Of a stretch of DNA of 64,000 nt, positions 35,665-57,177 are shown in pieces. The notes under the pieces are model-generated. The model had not been told where the DNA came from. It did not search any database and was given only the letters and a program-made list of their open reading frames with translations. The DNA comes from Zhaonella formicivorans. Its GTDB lineage: Bacteria; Bacillota; DUOV01; Zhaonellaceae. The translations under genes were made by a program, and so were the position numbers. The DNA is taken from assembly GCF_004353525.1 (NCBI RefSeq), contig NZ_CP085524.1, positions 1,894,142 through 1,958,141 on the forward strand. Reading direction: 5' to 3'. Within the stretch, counting starts at the first letter, position 1, and each line of letters begins with the position of its first letter.

Positions 35665-35800
35665 CAACACCTCTCTTTCAACGCCGACGAGGTTAGCTGA
35701 CGGGTTCGGGCCGAAAGAGCTGCCCTACCTTTAGGATTCACCCCAAAAGATTGGTTTCCCCGTTTCCCTGCAGGGAATTAGGCGTTTGGCTGAAATGACA
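35665..35800 (-). promoter_or_regulatory. Cyclic di-AMP riboswitch (ydaO/yuaA type)
   Basis: On the minus strand the conserved core runs ACGGGGAAACC, TTGGGGTGAATCC, then GGGCAGCTCTTTCGGCCCG, then AACCCGTCAGCTAACCTCGT, closing with GGCGTTGAAAGAGAGG. This matches the ydaO leader consensus in order and spacing. It precedes the CAP-domain wall protein gene, a typical target. These riboswitches usually turn genes off when c-di-AMP is high. Confidence 0.9.
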
Positions 35801-42977: not shown

Positions 42978-43014
42978 TTATCGTTTCCTTATAACCCTAG
43001 CGCAATCCAATAAA

Positions 43015-43041
43015 CCAAAAACCTCTTCGCTAAGAAGAGGT
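43015..43041 (-). terminator. Expression-platform terminator of SAM riboswitch
   Basis: ACCTCTTC-TTAGC-GAAGAGGT hairpin followed by TTTTTGG on the minus strand, between aptamer and metY. SAM binding should favour this hairpin. Confidence 0.88.
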
Positions 43042-43056
43042 TTTATGCATTAGTAC

Positions 43057-43169
43057 TCTTCTTATCTCCCAAGGAATCCTCCTTGCTGGAATTAGCACCT
43101 TGTTGAGCAATTGACTCAACCGGTTGCCGGGTTTCATAGGGCCAGTCCCTCCGCCTGCTCTCGATAAGA
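43057..43169 (-). promoter_or_regulatory. SAM-I riboswitch (S-box)
   Basis: Minus strand CTTATCGAGAG, GGCGGAGGGACTGGCCC, TATGAAACCCGGCAACC, GTGCTAATTCC and AGATAAG are the conserved S-box blocks in order, with closing stem CTTATC/GATAAG. It controls metY. Confidence 0.96.
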
Positions 43170-43475
43170 ACAAAGGTTTTCAAGTTGTTGTGCTTATTAT
43201 AGAATTCCGGTCTGTTTTTGTCAATTATTTTTTTTACCGCACCACCAGTCTAAGGAGACTTTTCTTTTGCCCATTGAGACACCCCCTCCGCGCGGGTAAG
43301 CTAGAAAATTTCCGCTAGTTAATAATATTTATTTTGCTGCCTGTTTGTGAAAGAATAGAGATGTCTAAGGTTATTGAATTTATGGATTATAACGCCGGGA
43401 TTTCTGCAAAATAGAGGATAGATTGTCAGAATGGCAAATATAGATAATATTGGTCAAAATACAGGAGGTGAGATC

Positions 43476-44294
43476 TTGCAGCAAGCTGAATTTAAAGCGC
43501 TGGCACTGGCCAATGAAATCAACCTGAACAGCATTGCCGGACACTTCGGCATCGATAAAAAGTTCAAGTGGGAAGAACCATTGGTGCTGTTTGATAATCA
43601 CTTAAAAGGGATTATCAATTCCCCGGAGGGTAAAGCTGTCTATATTTTCTCCTTCGGCAGCCTGGTCTGTATCAACTGCCAGTTTCATGAGATTACCGAT
43701 ATCTTGAAGTATCTGAAAAAAATTGAGCCAGGACTGAACATTCAATCGACTTTTAATTTCAGCGACGATTACAAGCTGGAAATCGGCTCGGAACAACCCC
43801 TTTCCCTCAACTATGAGTATATGACAGCCCCGGAGCTCAAAAACTATCACCGGGAAATCGTGGCCACTGTCCTGGCGAAGTCCGTGGCTTTGGAACGGAT
43901 TGAGCACGGCATCAATTTACTTTTAGATGCTATCGAGGATAAAATCGATCATTTGGAAAAGGGGCGGCTTAATATCCCCGATAACCGTTTGGCCAAAACC
44001 TCGGCCCAGATCCTGCGCTTTAAATATAATACTATCTCCTATCTGATGCTTTTGGATAAACCGGACATCGCCTGGGTCAGCGAAGAAGCGGAGGAGTTTT
44101 TTCTAAACTTAAGCGAACTGTTTGAACTGGACGACCGCTATGAAGCCATCAGGCACAAATCGGAGATCCTCATGGATATTACCGAGGTGTTTACCAGCCT
44201 CACCCATGCCCAGCGAGGCACCAGACTGGAGTGGATGATCATCATTTTAATCAGCATCGAACTGCTTTTATCGCTGCTGGAAAAAATATTTTAA
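43476..44294 (+). CDS. RMD1/DUF155-family protein
   Basis: The protein of about 272 residues matches the RMD1 (sporulation-protein-like, DUF155) family: VYIFSFGSLVCINCQ near 55-70, long helices with ERIEHGINLLLDAIED and KTSAQILRFKY, and a single C-terminal membrane segment (LEWMIIILISIELLLSLLEKIF region). The TTG at 43476 with AGGAGGTGA five bases upstream is a better start than the ATG at 43431. Bacterial members have no settled function; yeast RMD1 is needed for meiotic division. Confidence 0.85.
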   Translation: MQQAEFKALALANEINLNSIAGHFGIDKKFKWEEPLVLFDNHLKGIINSPEGKAVYIFSFGSLVCINCQFHEITDILKYLKKIEPGLNIQSTFNFSDDYKLEIGSEQPLSLNYEYMTAPELKNYHREIVATVLAKSVALERIEHGINLLLDAIEDKIDHLEKGRLNIPDNRLAKTSAQILRFKYNTISYLMLLDKPDIAWVSEEAEEFFLNLSELFELDDRYEAIRHKSEILMDITEVFTSLTHAQRGTRLEWMIIILISIELLLSLLEKIF

Positions 44295-44295
44295 A

Positions 44296-44322
44296 AAAGG
44301 GCGATCAGTTAAATCGCCCTTT
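44296..44322. terminator. Bidirectional intrinsic terminator
   Basis: AAAAGGGCGAT and ATCGCCCTTTT pair around a short loop between the convergent RMD1-family gene and cbiO. Confidence 0.9.
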
Positions 44323-45178
44323 TGATCTTCTTCTCACCATATTCCTTTGACTGCATCAAGCTAAACAATTCCTCTTTTGTTCTGGGAGCCGGGCTGTTTA
44401 ATGGAATCCACCCTTTTTGCTTCATCTCCTCATAAACTTCCAACACCCATGGTTTAGTCAAATCAGCGTGCTCAAGCAATGCGCCATCCTGGAAAATCTC
44501 CTGAGGTTCCCCCATTCCTGCCACTTGCCCGTTGATAATGATATAAATATAGTCGGACCAGGAATAAGCCAAATCCACATCGTGGGTAGACAGGATAATA
44601 GTCTTCCCTTCCCGGTTAAACCTATTAATTAAGTCAATAATCTCCTTGGAATGCCTTGGGTCCAGCCAGGCAGTAGGCTCATCAAAAATCAGCACCTCCG
44701 GTTCCATTGCCAGGATGTCGGCAATGGAAACCCTTTTCTTCTGGCCGTAACTCAACAGGTGGGTAGGCTTATGCTGCAAATGGCAGATTTCCGTAGCCTC
44801 CATTGCAGCTTCAACACGGCGCAGCACCTCAACCTTGTCCAGGCCCAGGTTTAAAGGACCAAAGGAAATCTCCTGCCGGACGCTGGCGGAAAAAAGCTGG
44901 CTATCCGGGTCCTGGAAAACGATGCCCACGTTTTGGCGCAGTTCCATCAAGGCGCTGTGCTGATAGGATATATCATTCCCAGCAAAACGGACCTTACCGC
45001 TGGCTGGTTTTAAAACGCCGTTAAAATGCAAAAACAGGGTCGACTTCCCCGCACCGTTAGGGCCTAAAACCGCAACCTTCTTCCCCCGCTCGATGGCTAA
45101 ATTTATGCTATTTAACGCCTTGGTGCCATCGGGGTACGTAAAACTCAAGTTCACTGCCTCCAAAATCAGATCAGCCAA
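44309..45178 (-). CDS. cbiO: Cobalt ECF/ABC transporter ATPase CbiO
   Basis: The 289-residue ATPase has Walker A GPNGAGKST near 39-47, the signature LLSYGQKKRVSIADI near 143, Walker B VLIFDEPTAWLDP near 162, and a H-loop STHDVDLA. It powers cobalt uptake through CbiMNQ. It starts at a TTG that overlaps the end of cbiQ by 13 bases. It is the last gene of the cobK-cbiMNQO operon and supplies cobalt for the many corrinoid proteins in the window. Confidence 0.95.
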   Translation of the reverse strand: MADLILEAVNLSFTYPDGTKALNSINLAIERGKKVAVLGPNGAGKSTLFLHFNGVLKPASGKVRFAGNDISYQHSALMELRQNVGIVFQDPDSQLFSASVRQEISFGPLNLGLDKVEVLRRVEAAMEATEICHLQHKPTHLLSYGQKKRVSIADILAMEPEVLIFDEPTAWLDPRHSKEIIDLINRFNREGKTIILSTHDVDLAYSWSDYIYIIINGQVAGMGEPQEIFQDGALLEHADLTKPWVLEVYEEMKQKGWIPLNSPAPRTKEELFSLMQSKEYGEKKIKRAI

Positions 45179-45957
45179 GCAAGCCCACCCCCTAAATATA
45201 ACGCCAGCAAGACCATTGCCAGATCAATAAACCCGATTACCGCCAAATTTCTTTTCGATAAGACATACTCATTATCCAGTACATTGATGGCATCGGTATA
45301 GCATCTGGCCATCATTGTCACCGTCAATTCCCGGGATTTTTGCAAGGATTTGCCGAACAGGTTGACAACCAACCCTCCCAGCGAATGATAGGAGTTTCTC
45401 CAGGAGGCGTAACCCAGCCTGGTGGCCTGTGAAATATACATCCTGCCCGCAGTGTCCAATAAGACAAAAATAAAACGGTAGATGAGCCCCATCAGTTCCA
45501 GGAACAGCCCGGGAGTCTTCAATTTCTTCAATACCCAAATCAGATCGACCATAGGCGTGGTTAAAACAAGAAAATACAGGCAACTGACAGCCCCCAGGGA
45601 TTTAAAAAAGAGATTTACTGCCAAAACCATGTCTCTATAGCGTACACCGATAATAACCGCTCCCAGATTAATTTCCTGCCAGTAACCGGCAGCCCGGTCC
45701 CCGAAGGAAAGCATGACGGTCAAAACTCCCGGCAGCAGAAAGGCCAAAGGCATGAGCAGCATTTTAGCATAATAACTTCCGGGAATCCTGGCCATACCCA
45801 CTGTGGCTATGGCCGCTAAAGCAATCACAATTACAGAAATGACCAGTGAATCAGCCAGCAGGCAAATTAGCAATAAGCTTATGGCAAAGATGAATTTTTC
45901 CACAGGATGAACATCTTTAAGTGCGCTGGAATAGGCATACTGGTCGATGCTCAGCAT
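45166..45957 (-). CDS. cbiQ: Cobalt transporter membrane subunit CbiQ
   Basis: The 263-residue membrane protein begins LSIDQYAYSSALKDVHPVEKF, usual for CbiQ, and has about five membrane segments and the ATPase-coupling AxxxRG-like region (SRELTVTMMARCYTDAI). It couples CbiO to the CbiM/CbiN substrate unit. It is two bases from cbiN. Confidence 0.95.
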   Translation of the reverse strand: MLSIDQYAYSSALKDVHPVEKFIFAISLLLICLLADSLVISVIVIALAAIATVGMARIPGSYYAKMLLMPLAFLLPGVLTVMLSFGDRAAGYWQEINLGAVIIGVRYRDMVLAVNLFFKSLGAVSCLYFLVLTTPMVDLIWVLKKLKTPGLFLELMGLIYRFIFVLLDTAGRMYISQATRLGYASWRNSYHSLGGLVVNLFGKSLQKSRELTVTMMARCYTDAINVLDNEYVLSKRNLAVIGFIDLAMVLLALYLGGGLAWLI

Positions 45958-45959
45958 TG

Positions 45960-46250
45960 TTAAATATTCCCCTTGTTTTTAGCCTTAGCCCGTGAAGCCC
46001 CTATGTAATAGCCAATAAAGCCGGCGCCTAAAGCCGCCTGCAGCGCAAAGAGCAAGCTCTCGATTTCCCCGCTGGGCGGCTCCCAGATGGGCGAGGCCCA
46101 TGCTTGGTATTCAGGATTTAATTCACTAATAACCGCTTCTGCCTGGCCGTCGGCACCGCCAAACTCAGCCCCGCTCTTCAACAGTAAAGGAACAACAGCT
46201 AAGATAATAACCAATAAAATAAGCATCATGTTTTTGGCTGTAGTACTCAT
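45960..46250 (-). CDS. cbiN: Cobalt transporter auxiliary subunit CbiN
   Basis: The 96-residue protein has two membrane segments (about 7-24 and 68-86) around a loop with [14 protein letters not shown], as in CbiN. It inserts into CbiM to allow cobalt loading. Its start overlaps the cbiM stop (ATGA). Confidence 0.94.
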
Positions 46251-46999
46251 GCCTTTGCCTCCTTCTTTAGAACCGCCAGTTCCTGCAGTTCATTTTTGTT
46301 ATAGGCGCTAAGCGTGTTAAAAACAAGTACTGTAAGCAAGCCTTCGCTGATAGCTAAGGGGAGCTGGGTTACGGCAAAAATAGCCATAAATTTGGCCATT
46401 GAAACCATAAACCCTCCTGTAGAAGCCGGGAAGGCCAATGCTAACTGTAACGAGGTAGTAACATAGGTTAACAGGTCTCCTATAGCGGAGGCCAAAAATA
46501 CAGATAACCACACAGGCGCGCCTAATTTATCCCCAAGCTTATATATACCATATGCAGCAATAGGACCAACAATTGCCATCGAAAAAACATTGGCACCTAA
46601 CGTGGTTAATCCGCCGTGGGCCAAAAGGAGCGCCTGAAAAAGAAGCACAATGCTTCCTAGAACTGACATAGCGGCAGGTCCAAAAATAATGGCTCCTAAC
46701 CCCACTCCCGTCGGATGGGAAGAGCTTCCTGTTACGGAGGGCATTTTTAGGGCAGAAAGAACAAATGCAAAAGCCCCCACTACTCCCAACATCAACTTTA
46801 GATTTGGATTCTGCTTTGTTATTTTTTTGATGGACTTTAAGCCCAAAAGAACAAATGGCAAACTTAACAGCGTCCAAAAAACAGCCCAAGGAGCCGGCAA
46901 AAATCCTTCCATAATATGCATAGCGTAAGCTGCCTGCGGAACCGTCAAAAATGTCGCCATAAAATACAGAATATACATTGACCTTTTGGTTGCTTTCAT
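46247..46999 (-). CDS. cbiM: Cobalt transporter substrate-binding subunit CbiM
   Basis: The 250-residue membrane protein carries the N-terminal metal site [10 protein letters not shown] (His within the mature N-terminus), [16 protein letters not shown] and [17 protein letters not shown], all CbiM hallmarks. It has a cleavable leader before MHIMEG. It determines cobalt specificity. ATG with GATGAGGTGA; seven bases after cobK. Confidence 0.96.
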
Positions 47000-47005
47000 T
47001 TTGAG

Positions 47006-47776
47006 TCACCTCATCTTTTTAAATTGGGCCACTGCCGCCAGCAAAGCCTCATAGTTTTGAACTTCGTTGCCCCAGCTTAAAGCAGGCCGTTTAATCACCA
47101 CAACGGGGATTTTTAAACTTAAGGCTGCGGACATCTTTGTTTCCGTCCCTCCAGCCCGACCGCTTTCTTTAATAACCACTACGGAGGCGTTAAAAGTCTT
47201 GAACATCAGCCTGTTCATTTCTTTGGAAAAGGGGCCTTGCATGGCGATGATATCTTTTGGCCTTAAACCCAATTCCTGGCATTTTTTCACGACGTTATGA
47301 TCCGGCAAAACCCTCACCACTATTCTTTTCCCCTTGGCGGCCGGGTGTCCAAGGAAAACTTCCAGGTTATTGCTGCCGGTAGTGAGAAACACCGTACTGC
47401 CCAGCTTAAAAGCCTTTTCCACCCCTTCTTCCCAGGAGTTGACAGGATGAATTAAAGGATGCCGTGGAATGTTTACTCTTTCCCTGACATAACGGACATA
47501 GGGGAGCATTTTATCCCGACAAAAACTGCCAATCAGCTGTGAGGCTGAGGTAGCAAAAGGGTTAGAAGCATCAACTACCAGGTCTATGCATTGCTTTTCA
47601 TGTACCCGGCTCAAATTATCGTATGATAATTCACCGGGAAATATCTCCCCTGCAGTTTCAGTTGCCAGTTCCTTGCCGTAGTCGGTAAGAGCAGCCACCA
47701 TCACCTGCAGCCCTTCCCGGCTTAAGAGGTTGACGATTTCCCTGCCTTCCTTCGTACCGGCCAAAACTAAAATCAC
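47006..47776 (-). CDS. cobK: Precorrin-6A reductase CobK/CbiJ
   Basis: The protein of about 256 residues has an N-terminal ILVLAGTKEGREI nucleotide motif, VVDASNPFATSASQ, and the C-terminal VIKESGRAGGTETKMSAAL that marks CobK/CbiJ. It reduces the macrocycle in cobalamin ring synthesis. An ATG at 47800 lacks a ribosome binding site; GTG at 47776, five bases after AAAGGG, is preferred. It leads the cobalt-uptake operon under a cobalamin riboswitch, while other cob/cbi genes must be elsewhere. Confidence 0.9.
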   Translation of the reverse strand: MILVLAGTKEGREIVNLLSREGLQVMVAALTDYGKELATETAGEIFPGELSYDNLSRVHEKQCIDLVVDASNPFATSASQLIGSFCRDKMLPYVRYVRERVNIPRHPLIHPVNSWEEGVEKAFKLGSTVFLTTGSNNLEVFLGHPAAKGKRIVVRVLPDHNVVKKCQELGLRPKDIIAMQGPFSKEMNRLMFKTFNASVVVIKESGRAGGTETKMSAALSLKIPVVVIKRPALSWGNEVQNYEALLAAVAQFKKMR

Positions 47777-47837
47777 CGCTACCCTTTCCCCCTCGTCCAT
47801 GTTGTATAGAGTAAAAGCGCTGTTGTATGGTGTTCAA

Positions 47838-47866
47838 AAAAATACCCTAGTTTTACAAACTAGGGA
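47838..47866 (-). terminator. Second terminator before cobK
   Basis: CCCTAGTTT and AAACTAGGG pair around a three-base loop, followed on the minus strand by TATTTTTTTG. It lies between the riboswitch terminator and cobK, an unusual second stop. Confidence 0.82.
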
Positions 47867-48087
47867 GGATAAGCTTCAAAAAGGGCAGCCTTATCTAACC
47901 ACCTCCCCGGTCAGGTGAAGATGCGATTAGAACAGGCCGGACCGCTATTCAAGGATCACCAGGAATCCCAAGTAGAATTTTGGCATTCCCTCCCCTTGCT
48001 GTACATACGGAAAATATGAATAGCTTCCATTTACTCTTTATCCCTCGGGACAAAGAACCTATTCAAAAGTATAAGTTATAACAGCAA
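47867..48087. other. Leader between two terminators, possible 13-residue peptide
   Basis: Between the two terminators the minus strand holds ATGCCAAAATTC at about 47977, preceded by AAGGGGAGGG, and reads MPKFYLGFLVILE then stop. It might be a leader peptide linked to the second terminator, or chance. Nothing else is evident. Confidence 0.3.
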
Positions 48088-48120
48088 AAAGCCCTCCAAC
48101 CGACAGGCAGAGGGCTTACA
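48088..48120 (-). terminator. Terminator downstream of cobalamin riboswitch
   Basis: AAGCCCTC and GAGGGCTT pair around a 13-base loop, followed on the minus strand by TTTTTGC. It is the likely expression platform of the cobalamin riboswitch. Confidence 0.7.
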
Positions 48121-48174
48121 AACCGAAAAAAAATGTTAAGACTCACTCCCCATCTACCGTGGGTTCAACTGCGA

Positions 48175-48445
48175 GCTCAGAACAAGCAGGTTTCCTGGCT
48201 CAAGGTCATTGCCTTACTATGCCTTCCCATTCGGCACTTAACCCAATACTGACATTTTGGTTAAACTGCATACTGCCATACGAAGCAATTTACTTTCATA
48301 ACCCTTAAGTTAATACAAGGTTAATTGCCGAACAGTGGCTCAATATAGCAAGGCTACCTTTCACAGTGGCGGGACCGCGCCAGATTCCCACTGGCTTCCC
48401 TCTCGGCTTTGCATTTTCAGCAAAGCACTTGCTCCAAAGCTATTC
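48175..48445 (-). promoter_or_regulatory. Cobalamin riboswitch
   Basis: Minus strand shows GCCAGTGGGAATCTGGCGCGG, shortened here to the B12-box-like AGCCAGTGGGAATCTGGC, then GGTCCCGCCACTGTGA, and further 3' GGGAAGGCATAGTAAGGC and GAGCCAGGAAACCTGC, the standard order of cobalamin riboswitch elements. It precedes cobK-cbiMNQO, so cobalamin should shut off cobalt uptake. Confidence 0.92.
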
Positions 48446-48656
48446 TGTTTTCCCTAATTATACCAAAGACATAAGGTTTTAGCAATACCTTATAAAACTT
48501 TATTCAGTCACCAGTCGCCAGCAGCTAATGCCGTCAAAAGTACAGTCTTCGTAAAACAGTACGCCGGTACTGAATAAGTTTCGACCTCCTAACCTAAACT
48601 AACAGGGAATTAAAATATAAGGAGGTGTACTCTGGTTAATTTGGCCCAGAGGCTAC

Positions 48657-48869
48657 ATGAGAAACAATTCGGGTAAATCTAAGCCGCACAAAAAAAGCGG
48701 TGAATTACTGCAAGGAAAAGCCAAAGGCAAGGTAGGAAACACGAGACAATTGGATGCTTTGAAGCAAGAGGTGGCGGAAATCGGGTTGAACTCCAAAATA
48801 GAGATGGACCGGGAAAGAGGAGCTACCTCTCTTTTGAAAAACCTGAAAGCCAATAAAACAACAAAATAG
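48657..48869 (+). CDS. Small basic hypothetical protein
   Basis: The 70-residue, Lys-rich, soluble protein (SKPHKKSGELLQGKAKGK, then LDALKQEVAEIGLNSKIEMDR) has GAGG five bases before the ATG and a GGAGGTG further upstream. It resembles small acid-soluble spore proteins only in size and in the LKQEVAEIGL helix; the key SASP motifs are missing. It ends at a hairpin that starts the repeat element. Confidence 0.5.
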   Translation: MRNNSGKSKPHKKSGELLQGKAKGKVGNTRQLDALKQEVAEIGLNSKIEMDRERGATSLLKNLKANKTTK

Positions 48870-48874
48870 TAAGC

Positions 48875-49053
48875 TGGGGAATCCTCCCCAGCTCAGGCTG
48901 TCGACAAACTATTATCAGCCAGCATGTATTATGGAGCGGGACTGGTTTCCACAGCCGTCGGCAGCTATGCTGCCGGTAACGGCGTAGGAGCTTGTCCAGA
49001 GCGAAATAATACATGCTGGCTTAGTCTACAAGCTGAATTGGGGAATATCCTCC
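48875..49053. mobile_element. Short element with inverted ends, left copy
   Basis: A gene-free unit bounded by CAGGCTGTCGACAAACTATTAT on the left (read as CAGGCTGTCGACAAA + CTATTAT) and TTAGTCTACAAGCTGA on the right, which are inverted relative to each other. Each end abuts a CTGGGGA/TCCTCCCCAG hairpin. Inside is a second inverted repeat, AGCCAGCATGTATTAT (48917) with ATAATACATGCTGGCT (49006). The same ends occur at 51055-51475. It looks like a non-autonomous MITE- or REP-like element. Confidence 0.6.
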
Positions 49054-49063
49054 CCAGCTTTCT

Positions 49064-50959
49064 TTATATGCCCAGGTGTTTCCTTCGCTCCATGATGAAG
49101 TTTTCAATGCCGTCTGCCACTTGGACCGGGTCGTCGCCCAGAGCCACCCTGCCGCCGGTTATCTCAACCAAATCTTCAGTCAAGAGCTTCACCAGTTCCG
49201 GGGCTCCGGTGACCGGTGGGGTCGGTGAAAGGTGGGTATACAACCCGAAGGCCAAAGCAAAAATTCCATCAATAGTCGCTTTTTGCTCCATGTATTGGGG
49301 AGCAGTCACCGCCACCGGCAAATCAGCCGTATCCACATCTAATGCTTTGGCAAGCTCACTTACCAGAACAGCTATGCGACCGGTGTCGGTACACGTACCA
49401 AAGCTCAATACCGGTGGAATGTTCAGGGCGCGGCAAACTTCTTGCAACCCCTTTCCAGCCCATTCTATTGCCTCCAAGCTGGTAAAGCCGGCAACTTCCA
49501 GCGCCTGATTGCCGCATCCTCCCGAAATCACGCAGATGTCTCTTTTGATCAGTTCCCTGGTTAACTCGGTAGTCATGTAATCATGGGGACCGTTGGCCAA
49601 AGTAGTGCAGTTAACAAGTCCCACCGCACCCTTCACTTTTCCTTCGGCAATTACCCTAACCAGAGGTTGGATAGTGCCTCCCAGAGCTTTCAAGATGGCT
49701 TCAACGCCAAAACCGGAATACCCCTTTTGAATTCTTTGGGGCACTCTGGGCTCTACCTTACCTTTGCGCTTTTTGAAATTTTCAATAGCTGCCAAAAGCA
49801 TATCCCTGGCCTGACCCTCTACCTCTTGCGGCTTATAATCATAATGCTTCTCCACGCCTGGCACCCGTACCAGCCTGGTGGTTGACGCCAGGGTTACCTG
49901 ATATTTCTCTTGGTAAGGAGCAAGGTAAGGGGGCGAGCAGTTTTCACTCATGCCAAAGAAATCAACAGCCCCTGTAGCCAGTAAAGGCTCAATGGCAAGC
50001 CAGTTTCCTGTCAAACCTCTAAATACCTCATCTACCTCGAAACGCTGCACTATTTCCTGGCCGCTCTCAATAGAACCAATAACTCTCAGTCCCTTAGCAC
50101 CGGCTTGCCTTGCTTCTTCCTGGATTTCAGGATCATGGGCTTTCATCACCAGGGCTGCCCCGGTGAATGGTTCATGCCCGTTAAACACCACATTGACATA
50201 ATCGGGATCTAAAATACCCAGGTCGTACTGCACTTCGTGGGGATATGGAGATCCTAAAATGATGTCAATGGCCCACTGCCCGGTCAGTTGGGCCCCGTAA
50301 ATACATGCAATTCCGAGGCGCAGTGCTTTACGGGCCAAAGAAACATAATCGCCATCCACATTGGTAAGACAGCTTGCCGCTGTGTCTTTAATCTCATGCA
50401 AGGGACCTGATGGATACAGGGCAAGCTTTCTCCAGAGTTCAACCCTTTGCCGCGGGGCAAATACGTCAATCACTTTGGAGGGCTCATCATAGCCGCGGTG
50501 CAGTTCCCAATGCAGAAAATCCGCCAATCTTATTGCCACGTCATTCACCGAACCGGAAGTGTCCAGTTCCAACTGTTTGGCAAAGTGATACATTTTTTCT
50601 GTATCTTTGATTTTGTAGGGGGTCTGTCCTAAGGCGGTTGCCTTTAAAGTCCTGATTGCTTCGTAAGCCTGGTAGGAATAAGTAGATGTACCCATGACAT
50701 TGCGCAAGAGCATATCCCTCATTGCCATGGCGTTACGGTCTATGCCGCAAACCCCCAGTACCGCCTCGGCCTTATCAGAAATCCGGCAAGGGCCGTTAGT
50801 GCACAGTTGACAGCTGACCCCGGCAACACAAAAGTTGCAGCGAATTTTTTCCTGGGGCGAGAACCTGTCAAAAGTGTTTGATATTTTGTCCTCTTTCAAG
50901 CGCTCATACATTTCCTGAACGGAAGGATGTACACTGACTTTTTCCGTGGTAAATTTCAT
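49064..50959 (-). CDS. cooS: Divergent anaerobic CO dehydrogenase, CooS family
   Basis: The 631-residue protein is a CooS-type Ni-Fe CO dehydrogenase by length and layout. The N-terminal cluster motif has Cys 41, 44, 50, 53, 58 and 71; compared with usual CooS, the second D-cluster cysteine (CC pair) is Ser49, with an extra Cys44. For the C-cluster, His262, Cys341, Cys451, Cys482, Cys523 and Lys560 align, but the position of canonical Cys295 reads VIGSIESGQE with no cysteine. So one expected C-cluster ligand is missing and activity is uncertain. No cooC, cooF or acs gene is adjacent. It is flanked on both sides by the same repeat element and may have another redox role. Confidence 0.85.
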   Translation of the reverse strand: MKFTTEKVSVHPSVQEMYERLKEDKISNTFDRFSPQEKIRCNFCVAGVSCQLCTNGPCRISDKAEAVLGVCGIDRNAMAMRDMLLRNVMGTSTYSYQAYEAIRTLKATALGQTPYKIKDTEKMYHFAKQLELDTSGSVNDVAIRLADFLHWELHRGYDEPSKVIDVFAPRQRVELWRKLALYPSGPLHEIKDTAASCLTNVDGDYVSLARKALRLGIACIYGAQLTGQWAIDIILGSPYPHEVQYDLGILDPDYVNVVFNGHEPFTGAALVMKAHDPEIQEEARQAGAKGLRVIGSIESGQEIVQRFEVDEVFRGLTGNWLAIEPLLATGAVDFFGMSENCSPPYLAPYQEKYQVTLASTTRLVRVPGVEKHYDYKPQEVEGQARDMLLAAIENFKKRKGKVEPRVPQRIQKGYSGFGVEAILKALGGTIQPLVRVIAEGKVKGAVGLVNCTTLANGPHDYMTTELTRELIKRDICVISGGCGNQALEVAGFTSLEAIEWAGKGLQEVCRALNIPPVLSFGTCTDTGRIAVLVSELAKALDVDTADLPVAVTAPQYMEQKATIDGIFALAFGLYTHLSPTPPVTGAPELVKLLTEDLVEITGGRVALGDDPVQVADGIENFIMERRKHLGI

Positions 50960-51029
50960 CAGATCACCTCTCTAGTTTTTTCGAGGTTAGTATTTCCACT
51001 AGCCTGCAAAAAATGCTGGAATCGGTGAC

Positions 51030-51059
51030 AAAAAAAGAGGGAAGCTGTATGCTTCCCTC
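51030..51059 (-). terminator. Intrinsic terminator downstream of thiT
   Basis: GAGGGAAGC and GCTTCCCTC pair around five bases and TTTTTTTG follows on the minus strand. It joins the end of the repeat element at 51060. Confidence 0.8.
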
Positions 51060-51475
51060 AGACCGTCGACAAAGTATTATTAGCCCTCGCACAATTGTAA
51101 CCCTTGTACCGCTGCTCCAAAGACTATCGCCAAGAGCGCTGGCCTGCTCAGGCTCTATGCAAGCCTTATGCACGACCGCATAAGGGCGACTAGACTTCTG
51201 CCGGCCCTAAAGGACTGGAATTTCTATGCATTATGAAACATAATGCTAGAAATTCTGGCGCGCTCACGCTTGGCACAAGCCAAGTCTTCTTTACGTTTGA
51301 CTTCCAGCGGCACGCGGTGACGCGACTTCCTATCGCTCCACCGCTCTCGCGGCGTCCGTGCCGCTCGTCCGCTTCCAGTCAAACTCTTCGCAGAGCGCTC
51401 TAAGGCTTGTCATAATGTCGCAGCTACACACAATGGATTACAATTTTTGCATTTGTCTACAAGCTGAGGGAAGCC
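51055..51475. mobile_element. Repeat element with inverted ends, right copy
   Basis: About 420 gene-free bases bounded by CCCTCAGACCGTCGACAAAG and TTTGTCTACAAGCTGAGGG, inverted relative to each other and matching the ends of the element at 48875-49053. Inside are segments shared with 17945-18185 and 19360-19440 (for example ACTATCGCCAAGAGCGCT and ACGACCGCATAAGGGCG) and a long hairpin at 51218-51255 (GAATTTCTA-GCATTATG arms). It separates cooS from thiT. Confidence 0.6.
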
Positions 51476-51521
51476 GTAAACTCCCCTCTCCTAATCATAC
51501 TTCTAAACAAGTAATAACAAG

Positions 51522-52052
51522 CTACATCTGCTGAGCAACAAAATTTTTCAAGGGCTTATAAAGCACTCCCACTACCACAACAGAAATCACCAATTCGGGC
51601 AACAGGTAAGCGCCGTTATACAGGATTGAATAAACCCAAGGATTCATGCCGGGAGGAGCGTAGGATGCCCAGATAATTACCCCCGAAAGCACATGGGAAA
51701 CGAAGCGGCCGAAAACAGCCAAAACTACTCCGGCAAAAGCCCCGGCATAGTTTTTTCTGGCCAAGCCGGCCAACCCCAGGAGCCCGAATGCTACCACATA
51801 ATCGAGTAAAATTGAGAGTATATGGTAAGAATATTTTGGTCCCAGGATAAACTGGAGCGCCCCGTAAACCGCTCCGGCAAACAAACCAGGCCCGAGTCCC
51901 CACCTGAGGGCATAAATCATCACCGGCACCATGCTCCCTGCCGTTACAGACCCCCCGTAAGGGGCTTCGAAAATTTTTACATAGCTCAAAATTTGAGCTA
52001 AAGCAATTAATACTCCTGCCTCTACCATCGCTTTAGTCGACAGTTTCCCCAT
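51522..52052 (-). CDS. thiT: Energy-coupled thiamine transporter ThiT
   Basis: The protein of about 176 residues has six membrane segments and matches the ThiT substrate-binding subunit (ALAQILSYVKIFEAPYGGS, then SMVPVMIYALRWG, and the WASYAPPGMNPWVYS loop). It binds thiamine and works with ECF module proteins encoded elsewhere. ATG at 52052 behind AGGAGGT is used rather than the upstream 52100. A TPP riboswitch controls it. Confidence 0.92.
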   Translation of the reverse strand: MGKLSTKAMVEAGVLIALAQILSYVKIFEAPYGGSVTAGSMVPVMIYALRWGLGPGLFAGAVYGALQFILGPKYSYHILSILLDYVVAFGLLGLAGLARKNYAGAFAGVVLAVFGRFVSHVLSGVIIWASYAPPGMNPWVYSILYNGAYLLPELVISVVVVGVLYKPLKNFVAQQM

Positions 52053-52069
52053 AAGATACCTCCTACAAA

Positions 52070-52101
52070 TAAAAAAATGCTGCACTGGATAATGCAGCAT
52101 T
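52070..52101 (-). terminator. Expression-platform terminator of TPP riboswitch
   Basis: AATGCTGCA and TGCAGCATT pair around eight bases and TTTTTTTATTT follows on the minus strand, between the TPP aptamer and thiT. Confidence 0.88.
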
Positions 52102-52111
52102 GTAAGTAGCT

Positions 52112-52208
<97 letters not shown>

Positions 52209-52305
52209 TATGCAGTTCTAGACATATTTTACCATAAAGCTTTGTATTCTTCAATTATATTTTTATCTTTGTCGTGTTTATCTTTGTTATCAATAATCTT
52301 AATTC

Positions 52306-54186
52306 TTAATTCCCATATTCACAGGGAATCAGGCTAACGTACTCATCCAGCTTGGCATCGGAAAGGCAGGCTTCGATGATCTGCCGGCCAACGGGATGCA
52401 ACTCAGATGTCAGGAAATGTTGCAATTCCCGCTTAAAGAAATCAGTCAGTATTTTGGCTCCGGCTTGGTAACCTTCCTCCCCTACCTCCGGCTGCAGGTC
52501 AACCTGGAGGAACACTTTGGGCAGGTAGGTCCCGTCAATCTTCAGCGAATCCAGAGCATATCCCAAGAGAGGGCATTTGGCGGGAGTCAATTGTTCTTTC
52601 CTGAATTTGGAACTGCCGCGCCGGGCAATATACTCCCTGGCCATCCATTCAGCCATAAAGCCCACTCTAAAGACACCTATATACTGGTTGGGAATCAAAA
52701 TGTACCTGGTGCTTGGTGTATCCATAATTTGCTCCAGCAGGAGATTGGCCTGGTCCACCATTTTCCCGGTGGCAAAAGGCCAGTAAGAACCTACCCCTTC
52801 GCTGGTCATGCCCTCTGTATCAGTAATGCTGGGGTTGGAATGTCCCCTGGGGGCAACCAGCCTCCACAGCCAGGCGAGGCTAGGCGGCAGTACATGGAAC
52901 AAGCCGATAATGCCGTAGTTCGGATTATCCCTGGTGCTGGGCGGGGTCCTTACCCCGAAACTGCGAATGTTGACTTCCACCGGTTCATTGACAGTGTTCG
53001 GGAAAAACCTCCTAGGAACAATGACCCTGGGGTTTGGGCAGGGTTTCCCCGGTTCATCCAGGGTGTGCTCCCAGATCAAGCAGGTCGAACCCGGTGCAGC
53101 GTCAATATTTAAAAAGATCAAAGGAGCAGGCGGGTGGATAGTTAATTCCTCAATTTGGGGATCAGTACCGTACTTTTTAATATGGTCAACCCTGATAAAC
53201 CAGCCCGCTTCGGCATCGGTTACAACCAGCCGCTTTTTGCCGTCCTGCAGCCCTGGAGGACATAACGCCATGTCATCGGTCACAGGCTGCAGTTCAGAGC
53301 TGTCTGAAATTTCCAGGTAATGCCTTTCCCTGGTCACAATATTTTCTCCCAGCAGCACCTTACCGTCGGCTTCCCGGTGAAACTGCTGGAGCATCTCGCT
53401 CTTACCGCCGCCGCTGGCCCCTTCATGCATTATGGTAAAAATATTTTCGTAGGGAGTGATAACTTTAACGGTGGATCCATGCAGAGTAACCCAGCCTTCT
53501 GTTTCCCCGATGTTTAACAGCACGCCGTAAATGCCTTTTTTGGCGCTTGGCCCCGGATAGAGATTATAGGAGAAAAGCTCATGGATGTTTTCTCTCCTGT
53601 TATGCACCACCACCTGCTTATTGTCGAAATGGGTGTGGCGGAAAGGCGGCGCCACACAGACGATAGCTTTCGGGGTGAATTCAGGAGGGATACGGTCGGG
53701 AGACAAAAACTCCTGTAAATCAGCCAAAGCCGCTGCAAAAAAGCCGGCATTGGCGGGAGCAACCAAAAGGGCCGGGTACCCTAAGGTTGAGCCCCCTGCC
53801 ATAAAAGGCAGCACAATCAGGGGTTGCTGCTCCAGCCACTCAAAAGTTGCCGTGCGCAGCGGTTTGAAATCCTGACCGAAACGGTCTTTGTACCTCTCTT
53901 TATCCGTCTCCCCTTTGTCAGCAACAACCATGCAATCAGGATCTCTTCTTCTCATGTAAATATCGGTATAATTTACGGCTATGCCGTTCTTGCAGCGGGT
54001 AACGGTAGCTTCTACAATTCGCCCGATACCTGGGATGTCGTAAGCAACCTCATAAAAGTCCTTTCCTTTATTGCCTAGGGCCAGCTCCAGCAATTCTTCC
54101 CTGCTCCCGGGGATAATTACCTCGGTATTTTGTAAAATGTGCAGCAAATCCGGAGGCAACTTAAATTTAGCAAACATCTCTGTCAT
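52306..54186 (-). CDS. DUF4914 protein with PEPCK-like P-loop
   Basis: The protein of about 626 residues matches the DUF4914 family. It holds a phosphate-binding loop HEGASGGGKSEMLQQF near 258-273, recalling the kinase-1a loop of ATP-dependent phosphoenolpyruvate carboxykinase, and nearby acidic residues (FLNIDAAPGSTCLIWEH). A nucleotide- or phosphate-transferring role is likely but the substrate is unknown. ATG at 54186 follows GAGAGGAGAGGA; the upstream frame to 54261 is unlikely. It has no obvious operon partner. Confidence 0.8.
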   Translation of the reverse strand: MTEMFAKFKLPPDLLHILQNTEVIIPGSREELLELALGNKGKDFYEVAYDIPGIGRIVEATVTRCKNGIAVNYTDIYMRRRDPDCMVVADKGETDKERYKDRFGQDFKPLRTATFEWLEQQPLIVLPFMAGGSTLGYPALLVAPANAGFFAAALADLQEFLSPDRIPPEFTPKAIVCVAPPFRHTHFDNKQVVVHNRRENIHELFSYNLYPGPSAKKGIYGVLLNIGETEGWVTLHGSTVKVITPYENIFTIMHEGASGGGKSEMLQQFHREADGKVLLGENIVTRERHYLEISDSSELQPVTDDMALCPPGLQDGKKRLVVTDAEAGWFIRVDHIKKYGTDPQIEELTIHPPAPLIFLNIDAAPGSTCLIWEHTLDEPGKPCPNPRVIVPRRFFPNTVNEPVEVNIRSFGVRTPPSTRDNPNYGIIGLFHVLPPSLAWLWRLVAPRGHSNPSITDTEGMTSEGVGSYWPFATGKMVDQANLLLEQIMDTPSTRYILIPNQYIGVFRVGFMAEWMAREYIARRGSSKFRKEQLTPAKCPLLGYALDSLKIDGTYLPKVFLQVDLQPEVGEEGYQAGAKILTDFFKRELQHFLTSELHPVGRQIIEACLSDAKLDEYVSLIPCEYGN

Positions 54187-54660
54187 CTGTTCCTCTCCTC
54201 TCAGTACAAACCTACGCTGTACTTTTTTATTGAAAAAGCCAATAATAATAAGTACAGGCACTCATTATCATTGGCCTAAAAACTCTGATTTACCTGACAA
54301 AAACCGGCTAGCTAAGTTTATAAATTTTTATTATCATAACAAATCAGAGCATATCTTGCAATCCATTCCCGTTAAGTATACTGCATTACAGGCTGGAAAT
54401 GCTCCTATGGGTTATTTAAAAATTCAACTTTCGCAGAAACAAAAAGCTAATTTTTCCTTGAAACACTGGTTGAGCAGTCTGCCGACTTGATGTGCTTGCA
54501 AAAAATAGTTCGTTGTTTAATGTAGATACAAAAAAAGATAGGTTGAGAGTCCATAATCTCAACCTATCTTCAAAAAAAATTTACGTTTCAACGCAAGACC
54601 CTCTAAATCAGTCCTTGGCGGGTCCTGGGCCACCGGAAAATCAAGTTCAATATTGCAGTG
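54187..54660. other. Intergenic region between DUF4914 gene and malic enzyme
   Basis: AT-rich sequence with the DUF4914 promoter area on the left and the malic-enzyme operon terminator at 54532-54578. I find no credible gene or RNA structure in the remaining bases. Confidence 0.5.
54532..54578 (-). terminator. Intrinsic terminator of the aco-gap-pgk operon
   Basis: AAGATAGGTTGAGA and TCTCAACCTATCTT form a perfect 14-base stem, followed on the minus strand by TTTTTTTG, downstream of the malic enzyme gene. Confidence 0.92.
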
Positions 54661-55890
54661 CTACTTTATTGCAGCAATGGCGAAAGTCTTCTCTTCAATA
54701 TCAGACGGATCCACTTTTATTCTTGCTACTCCAGAATCCATTGCAGCCTGGGCCACAGCGGCAGCCACTTTAGGAGCAATTCGCTTATCAAAGGGATCGG
54801 GCATAACAAATTCTTCGCACAGTTCCTTATCGCTTACCAGCCCTGCAATAGCATGGGCTGCAGCTAGCTTCATTTCTTCGTTGATATCTTTGGCACGAAC
54901 GTCCAAAGCTCCCCTGAATATGCCGGGGAAAGCCAAGGAATTATTAACCTGGTTGGGAAAATCGGATCGCCCGGTACAAACCACCCTGGCTCCTGCAGCT
55001 TTTGCAATGTCAGGCAGAATTTCAGGTATAGGGTTAGCCATAGCCATGATTATAGGAGCCTTAGCCATTGATTTTACCATATCCTGATTAAGGACATTAC
55101 CTGTAGAGAGTCCGATAAACACATCAGCCCCAACTAATACTTCAGCTAGACTTCCCTTAACCTTTTGCTTATTAGTAAATTGACTAATCTCTTCCTTCTC
55201 TTTATTCATTCCCTCTGGCCGCCCGGCGTAGATCGCACCAAGGCGGTCACAAAGTATAGCATCCTTGACACCACTCTTCAACAGCAACTTGAGCACAGCA
55301 ATTCCGGCGGCACCTGCGCCATTAATTACTACCTTAACTTCATCAATTTTTTTGCCAACTAGTTTCACCGAGTTTAACATGGCTGCCAGGGTAACTACGG
55401 CTGTGCCATGCTGGTCATCATGAAAGATTGGTATATTACACTCCTCTTTTAATCTGCGTTCGATTTCAAAACAATTCGGCGCTGCTATATCTTCTAAATT
55501 TATGCCGCCAAAAGTAGGCTCTAACATTTTTACAGCCTGCACTACTTCTTCTACTTCCCTAGCCCGTATACAAATCGGAAATGCATCTATTCCTGCAAAC
55601 GTTTTAAATAATACGGATTTTCCTTCCATAACCGGCATGGCAGCCTCAGGGCCAATGTCACCCAAACCTAAAACAGCAGTGCCATTGCTGACTACAGCAA
55701 CCATATTTCCTTTGTTAGTATAATCGTAAACTTTATCTACATCTGCATGGATTTCTTTACAAGGTTCTGCCACACCAGGCGTATAAGCCAAGCTCAATTC
55801 ATACCCATTAGTAATTTGAACTTTCGGTTGGACCGTAATTTTCCCAGTATTCCTTTGATGTAGTTCTAATGCTTCTTCCCGTAAACCCAT
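54661..55890 (-). CDS. NAD(P)-dependent malic enzyme
   Basis: A 409-residue short-form malic enzyme: YTPGVAEPCKEIHAD near 35-49, GLGDIGPEAAMPVMEGK, FHDDQHGTAVVTLAA near 157 with the metal-binding acidic pair, and the NAD fold VVINGAGAAGIAVLKL. It oxidatively decarboxylates malate to pyruvate. It ends the operon, 36 bases after larA, and could feed pyruvate to the dehydrogenase complex encoded upstream. Confidence 0.94.
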   Translation of the reverse strand: MGLREEALELHQRNTGKITVQPKVQITNGYELSLAYTPGVAEPCKEIHADVDKVYDYTNKGNMVAVVSNGTAVLGLGDIGPEAAMPVMEGKSVLFKTFAGIDAFPICIRAREVEEVVQAVKMLEPTFGGINLEDIAAPNCFEIERRLKEECNIPIFHDDQHGTAVVTLAAMLNSVKLVGKKIDEVKVVINGAGAAGIAVLKLLLKSGVKDAILCDRLGAIYAGRPEGMNKEKEEISQFTNKQKVKGSLAEVLVGADVFIGLSTGNVLNQDMVKSMAKAPIIMAMANPIPEILPDIAKAAGARVVCTGRSDFPNQVNNSLAFPGIFRGALDVRAKDINEEMKLAAAHAIAGLVSDKELCEEFVMPDPFDKRIAPKVAAAVAQAAMDSGVARIKVDPSDIEEKTFAIAAIK

Positions 55891-55926
55891 TGTAAGCCCC
55901 CCAAAATAATTTGGTTAATGCAAAAA

Positions 55927-57177
55927 TCAAACCATTGCCCTTGGCAACGTCGAACCTCCATAGGGCATGGCCAGTACAGTGGCAAATTCCCCCAGCTTGG
56001 CAAATGCAGCATCCAATGCTGCCTGTGCAGAGGGCTGGGGCGTCAAGAAGATGCTTTTTACCAAAGAATCAGGCAGCTCGGACACCAGATAGATATCCGC
56101 TTTTTCCAAGACCATTGCTATGGCTGCGGCTTTGTGTCCACCCAATTGGAAATCACGACCGATTCGCTCGATCATAGAATGAGCATCGGGGGATTGTGTC
56201 ATCCACTGTTCAAAAGTATGCTCCCCAAGCCCCTCCTTACAAGAACCAATTAATATAATCACGCCCCCATCTTTCACCGCATGCTTTGCGTTATCCAATG
56301 CCTTTTGGGTCTGATATAGGTTCAAATCCTTGGGGGCCCCTCCCTGGGACACCAACACGATATCCGCTCGCTCAGGTATCTCTTTGAGATATAGTTTATC
56401 CAAAAAAGCGCAGCCCTCTCGATGCGCCTGCACTGGATGACCGGCTACGGCTTTGATGATTCTTTTATGTTCATCCAGCACGACGTTGAGTATGAAGTCT
56501 ATTTTACAAATGGTCGCAGCCTCTTCGATATCCTCTCGCACTGGATTTCCCTCCAGCCTGCCGGCGCAAGCCATTGGGTGCACCATAAGGCTGTGGTTCG
56601 ATTGGATGGCCGCACGGGTAGACACACCGGGCATGATGGCCTTGGCTCCACCGCTATATCCTGCAAAATAATGGTACTCAATGTTGCCCAGACAAATGCG
56701 CCTGTCGGCCTCCGCCACCACCCGCACAATATCCACAGGGGTGCCGCGGGACGTAACGCCCAGATGCACGCAGTCCGTTGGATCCCCGTCAATGCAAGCA
56801 ATTTGGGAGAATACCGACTCCCCGGCAAGCTTCCTCCGCTCTTCCTCGGTATGCATCCTGTGGCTGCCCAGGGCAAACACCAGCGTCACGTCCTCCGGTT
56901 TCACCCCGGCCTGGTCCAGTTCGTCAAGCAAAGCCGGCATCACCGCAGAGGTGGGCATGGGCCGGGTAATATCGCTGGTGACAATCACAACCTTTTCCCC
57001 GGGCCTAACGATTTCCCGGAGACGCGGCAGGCCGATGGGATGCTCCAGCGCATACTTGATGGCTGCCTCGCCTGTATGGGTATATTGTACATGATTCGGT
57101 GTGAGCACGCCCAGCAGGTTCTGTTCTGGCACCTCTACCGTTTGCTTCCCTGTACCAAACCCAAATTCCAACTTCAT
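55927..57177 (-). CDS. larA: LarA-type nickel-dependent lactate racemase
   Basis: The protein of about 416 residues keeps all residues known for LarA with correct spacing: His106 (GSHRMHT), His169 and Lys179 in YHYFAGYSGGAKAIMPG, and His195 (QSNHS), corresponding to His108, His174, Lys184 and His200 in the Lactiplantibacillus enzyme. It should use the nickel-pincer cofactor, whose synthesis genes larB, larC and larE are not in the window. ATG at 57177 overlaps the pgk stop (ATGA), so translation is coupled. It may racemise lactate or another 2-hydroxyacid. Confidence 0.9.
   Translation of the reverse strand: MKLEFGFGTGKQTVEVPEQNLLGVLTPNHVQYTHTGEAAIKYALEHPIGLPRLREIVRPGEKVVIVTSDITRPMPTSAVMPALLDELDQAGVKPEDVTLVFALGSHRMHTEEERRKLAGESVFSQIACIDGDPTDCVHLGVTSRGTPVDIVRVVAEADRRICLGNIEYHYFAGYSGGAKAIMPGVSTRAAIQSNHSLMVHPMACAGRLEGNPVREDIEEAATICKIDFILNVVLDEHKRIIKAVAGHPVQAHREGCAFLDKLYLKEIPERADIVLVSQGGAPKDLNLYQTQKALDNAKHAVKDGGVIILIGSCKEGLGEHTFEQWMTQSPDAHSMIERIGRDFQLGGHKAAAIAMVLEKADIYLVSELPDSLVKSIFLTPQPSAQAALDAAFAKLGEFATVLAMPYGGSTLPRAMV

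Follow-up and report, generated by a model that had tools for sequence, protein, structure and literature searches.

A gene of Zhaonella formicivorans with the outward features of a CooS-type carbon monoxide dehydrogenase (CODH) very probably encodes a close homologue of CooS-V, that is, a homodimer with the CODH fold that has no Ni-containing C-cluster and holds an Fe/S/O hybrid cluster. The gene occupies positions 49064-50959 on the minus strand of the window, the 64,000-nucleotide stretch of DNA that was analysed, in a genome that consists of a single contig of 3,314,304 bases; translation of the open reading frame gives 631 amino acids with no internal stop. Alignment, phylogeny, Pfam and fold search place the product in the CooS-V-type (group D-1) branch of the Prismane/CODH family, with Prismane as its Pfam family, and it is probably the orthologue of the Carboxydothermus hydrogenoformans protein. 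A sequence-only reading had noticed the loss of a C-cluster cysteine and a changed D-cluster motif. That observation is right but had been explained in print before, and the gene is a further example of a described group.

CooS-V of C. hydrogenoformans (CHY_RS00160) was solved by Jeoung et al. 2022 (PMC9311411) in a series of crystal structures (7B7Q, 7B7T, 7B95, 7B97 and 7B9A). The published account describes a Cys-to-Glu exchange and an extra D-cluster cysteine, a bridging [2Fe-2S] cluster, and a Ni-free, morphing Fe/S/O hybrid cluster that rearranges with the redox state, a gas channel opening on reduction (PMC9311411). The enzyme was reported to neither oxidize CO nor reduce CO2, to reduce hydroxylamine very slowly, and to show no NO reduction above background, and a C295E variant of CODH-II was Ni-deficient and inactive with CO (PMC9311411). 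The hydroxylamine turnover reported for CooS-V is 0.13 per second, and its hybrid cluster gives EPR signals at g 1.98, 1.90 and 1.80 when oxidized and at 2.12, 1.96 and 1.78 when reduced (PMC9311411). Inoue et al. 2019 (PMC6344411) named structural group D-1, within clade D of the Ni-CODHs, and defined it by a type III D-cluster, replacement of Cys by Glu, replacement of the acid-base His by Tyr, a retained Lys, and a Glu two residues before this Lys as in the hybrid cluster protein (HCP). The literature consulted (PMC9311411, PMC6344411, PMC13056359, PMC10502027, PMC12780646) yielded no assay in which a natural substrate of the CooS-V/D-1 group was used.

The residues of the active site and clusters were compared in an alignment of the window protein, CooS-V (7b7q), the canonical CODHs 6t7j and 6elq, 26 related loci, and the paralogues of the same genome (four other CODH-like genes and the HCP). 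The window protein, CooS-V and the 26 loci form a group of 28 rows. These loci were found by a scan that used peptides of the window protein as patterns and so favours close relatives, and counts of 28/28 do not stand for all of clade D. Excluded from the count were L001 and L038, both duplicates of the gene in the window, L034, L036, L037 and L039, which are paralogues of the same genome fetched again, L032, with an open segment limited to residues 269-631, and L033, which has only 79 residues and no match. His262, Cys341, Cys451, Cys482, Cys523 and Lys560, which had been assigned to the C-cluster site from the sequence, align with their counterparts in 6t7j, 6elq and CooS-V. The canonical Cys295 is absent as had been claimed, the column being occupied by Glu298 in the context GSI-E-SGQE (codons of Ile297 and Glu298 at 50064..50069, minus strand; codon coordinates are counted from the ORF start at 50959), and no neighbouring cysteine takes over the column. 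The C-cluster ligand set of one His and five Cys is thus incomplete, the first of the five cysteines being Glu298. Since all 28 rows have Glu at this position, neither chance nor a sequencing error accounts for Glu298. Cys41, Cys44, Cys50, Cys53, Cys58, Cys71, Asn340, Glu558 and Tyr94 are likewise common to 28/28 rows, which span bacteria and archaea.

The altered N-terminal motif was also read correctly: it runs C41-x2-C44-x4-S49-C50, with Cys44 as an addition and Ser49 standing where the usual CC pair begins (Ser in 25 of the 28 rows and Arg in L024, L025 and L026). Written as C41-x2-C44-x5-C50, it corresponds to the type III D-cluster motif C-x2-C-x5-C; the codons of residues 41-44 (C41-N-F-C44), which include the type III D-cluster cysteines, lie with two further bases at 50826..50839 on the minus strand. 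The acid-base His is replaced by Tyr94, while Lys560 is kept and preceded two residues earlier by an additional Glu558 (codons of Glu558, Gln559 and the catalytic-type Lys560 at 49280..49288, minus strand). Position 97 is Gln in the window protein and in L014, and His in the remaining 26 rows. Four points had been overlooked in the sequence-only reading: that the vacant position is filled by Glu298, whose counterpart in the homologue is a cluster ligand; that Glu558 is the second Glu of the hybrid-cluster site; that the change in the D-cluster motif yields a motif already known as type III ([2Fe-2S]); and that the group has been named and characterized.

Sequence and fold searches converge on the same protein. 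The top PDB sequence match was 7b7q_A (phmmer, E 1.3e-287), followed by a chain at 1e-118, and over 626 columns the protein shares 65.5% identity with CooS-V, compared with 34.9% and 34.2% to the canonical 6t7j and 6elq. An AlphaFold2 model was built from alignment A1, which held 16 sequences (the window protein and 15 of 28 scanned loci). Its mean pLDDT is 86.2, but the values fall below 50 over residues 31-70, so that the model is uninformative on the D- and B-clusters. In a fold search with this model 7b7q_A came first (Z 60.6, rmsd 1.8, 603 residues aligned), followed by 6t7j_D (Z 58.0, rmsd 2.0, 591 aligned), and a class III HCP reached Z 29.4. Because the CODH fold is common to all of these proteins, the assignment rests on the sequence signature and on the tree.

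A first tree of 35 rows that included the HCP placed its very long branch near L013, and because of this placement the Glu group needs two changes instead of one. The second tree held 33 rows after removal of the HCP (L035) and L004; it has no outgroup, and its root serves for drawing only. Here all 28 Glu rows fall to the same side of a branch that has 100/100 support and recurs in 100% of the 200 bootstrap trees. The window protein groups with L014, to which it is 84% identical, within a 100/100 set of 12 rows that includes CooS-V. The paralogue L002 of the same genome is the next to branch off. Two genomes of the same family, G001 and G002, also carry the CooS-V type (L048, 65%; L049, 60%).

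It had been guessed from the sequence that the protein may bind a changed cluster or perform another reaction, and the crystal structures and assays of the 65.5%-identical CooS-V (PMC9311411) lend this support by analogy. The window protein thus most likely contains an iron-sulfur-oxygen cluster and has no activity on CO. With cluster type and mechanism carried over from CooS-V by homology, a subunit-bridging [2Fe-2S] D-cluster, bound by Cys41 and Cys44 of both subunits, would start the electron path, and electrons would pass from there by way of the [4Fe-4S] B-clusters (Cys50, Cys53, Cys58 and Cys71) to a 4Fe hybrid cluster with His262, Glu298, Cys341, Cys451, Cys482, Cys523 and Glu558 as putative ligands. 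On reduction, a persulfide sulfur on Cys523 would shift into the cluster and the gas channel would open, and the reduced [4Fe-3S] hybrid cluster could then bind and reduce a small oxidized substrate.

The alternative that the protein is a working CODH, in which Glu298 or another residue replaces Cys295 and the Ni C-cluster still forms, is very improbable. Lys560 and the rest of the C-cluster ligands are indeed retained, the NCBIfam CODH model TIGR01702 takes the protein at 766.7 bits against a cut-off of 478, and genetic hints of CO oxidation by a D-1 protein of Methanosarcina acetivorans are cited in the published work on the group (PMC6344411). However, CooS-V with the same residues contains no Ni and was reported inactive with CO and CO2, and the CODH-II variant with the corresponding Glu behaved likewise toward CO and was deficient in Ni (PMC9311411); moreover, the position of the acid-base His is held by Tyr94. 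The protein belongs to a group that is still labelled CO dehydrogenase in sequence annotation, and one practical consequence is that counts of CO oxidizers based on models of this kind wrongly include it. The proximity of the gene to cobalt-type ECF transport genes could also be taken to favour a working CODH, but CbiJ and a cobalamin riboswitch come next after these genes, so that they serve cobalamin.

The nine neighbours scanned with Pfam together with the protein itself consist of an ABC ATPase with CbiQ, CbiN and CbiM, then CbiJ/CobK, ThiT, a DUF4914 protein, malic enzyme and a DUF155 protein, so that the gene stands between cobalamin-related genes (from the ABC ATPase to CbiJ/CobK) and thiT. 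The cobalamin riboswitch lies at 48168-48447 with CbiJ/CobK and a TPP riboswitch at 52101-52214 with thiT. The DUF4914 protein (651 amino acids; 52306-54261, minus strand) scores 1078 bits, and further riboswitch aptamers were seen on the minus strand for c-di-AMP (35666-35794), SAM (43059-43170) and glycine (372-472). None of the ten scanned proteins is cooC, cooF or acs, in agreement with the sequence-only reading, and this absence is nothing unusual: according to Bohm and Land 2026 (PMC13056359), 64% of the genes in clade D lack an associated neighbour. Terminator-like stems found by a consensus scan on the minus strand, upstream (51037..51059) and downstream (48870..48895) of the gene, suggest that it is probably transcribed alone and apart from thiT.

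The region upstream of the gene (51059-51490, minus strand) holds an interspersed repeat about 410 bases long, non-coding and built of modules. It has 68 match places in this genome, and its modules (query positions 54-227, 228-344 and 370-462) occur elsewhere alone or in tandem. The corresponding RNA forms a single long hairpin with branches (-177.6 kcal/mol, z -6.95). Scanning 50900-51600 against Rfam with permissive settings yielded no match for the repeat region, and short matches were present in only one of the 20 relatives searched (G002, at three places).

A solitary gene with one changed ligand might also represent a decaying pseudo-enzyme that has lost the CODH function. The intact frame and a signature that is invariant in every row of the group, across both domains, make this the least credible of the readings considered. 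A role as redox sensor or regulator with no real turnover, an idea put forward for clade D because its members co-occur with active CODHs, is less easily dismissed, although it too is unlikely. The redox-dependent rearrangement of the CooS-V cluster and the slow turnover (PMC9311411) are consistent with such a role, as is the presence in the same genome of four further CODH-like genes (five with the window gene) and one HCP (L057, 4698-6449; NF003658, 841.6 bits). Against it stand the gas channel, whose opening on reduction fits a reductase (PMC9311411), and the fact that no conserved regulatory partner was seen near the gene. When ORFs of at least 80 codons from the 26 loci and from window positions 43001-57000 were clustered (the cooS-V frame of L026 itself not being in the clustering), no neighbour family was common to the window and at least three of the 26 loci. 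Families found in at least three loci, other than cooS-V itself, were all confined to archaeal loci of Methanomethylicota type and none included the window, whose small links apart from cooS-V were single pairs, one with L024 and one with L014.

For the preferred reading, a reductase with a hybrid cluster, we put at about an even chance that the protein serves to reduce a reactive nitrogen or oxygen species at low potential. This is a guess by extension from CooS-V, whose slow hydroxylamine turnover and background-level NO reduction leave such a role weakly founded. It is conceivable, though short of probable, that proteins of the CooS-V type, encoded by solitary genes in anaerobes that also possess ordinary CODHs and an HCP, are dedicated to some low-potential reduction that these other enzymes do not perform, and that the Gln97 line represented by the window protein and L014 is tuned differently.

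Among the paralogues, the sister-type L002 (L056:6108-8111; C1 about 1187110-1188969) is 42-43% identical and has Cys at the position of Glu298, yet shares Tyr94, Asn340 and Glu558 with CooS-V; its site resembles a stage halfway from a C-cluster site to a hybrid-cluster site. Its neighbours include a ferredoxin-like protein (L056:5504-6001), an FAD/NAD oxidoreductase (L056:4234-5484) and a Crp/Fnr-type regulator (L056:8981-9670). The occurrence of L002 and the window gene in one genome is convenient for studies of the change from a Ni C-cluster to a hybrid-cluster site. The CODH-like L052 of G002 combines Tyr94, Val97, Asn340, Cys at 298 and Glu558 with Gln in place of Lys560.

Compared with known systems, the window protein shares with HCP the Prismane Pfam family and, by homology to CooS-V, probably a similar active-site cluster, but it is only 24.6% identical over 508 columns to the HCP of its own genome (L035) and scores 38.9 bits with the HCP model TIGR01703, below the curated cut-off of 360.8. 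With the canonical CODHs 6t7j (Thermococcus sp. AM4) and 6elq (C. hydrogenoformans CODH-IV) it has in common the fold, His262, four C-cluster cysteines, the B-cluster cysteines and Lys560, whereas these enzymes have Cys at 298, Gly at 44, Cys at 49, His at 94 and Gln at 340. The likeness to CooS-V extends to Glu298, the D-cluster motif, Tyr94, Asn340, Glu558, Lys560 and all remaining ligands, and Gln97 in place of His is the only functional difference found. With group D-1 as defined by Inoue et al. (PMC6344411) no difference was seen, and the protein displays every one of the defining features given there.
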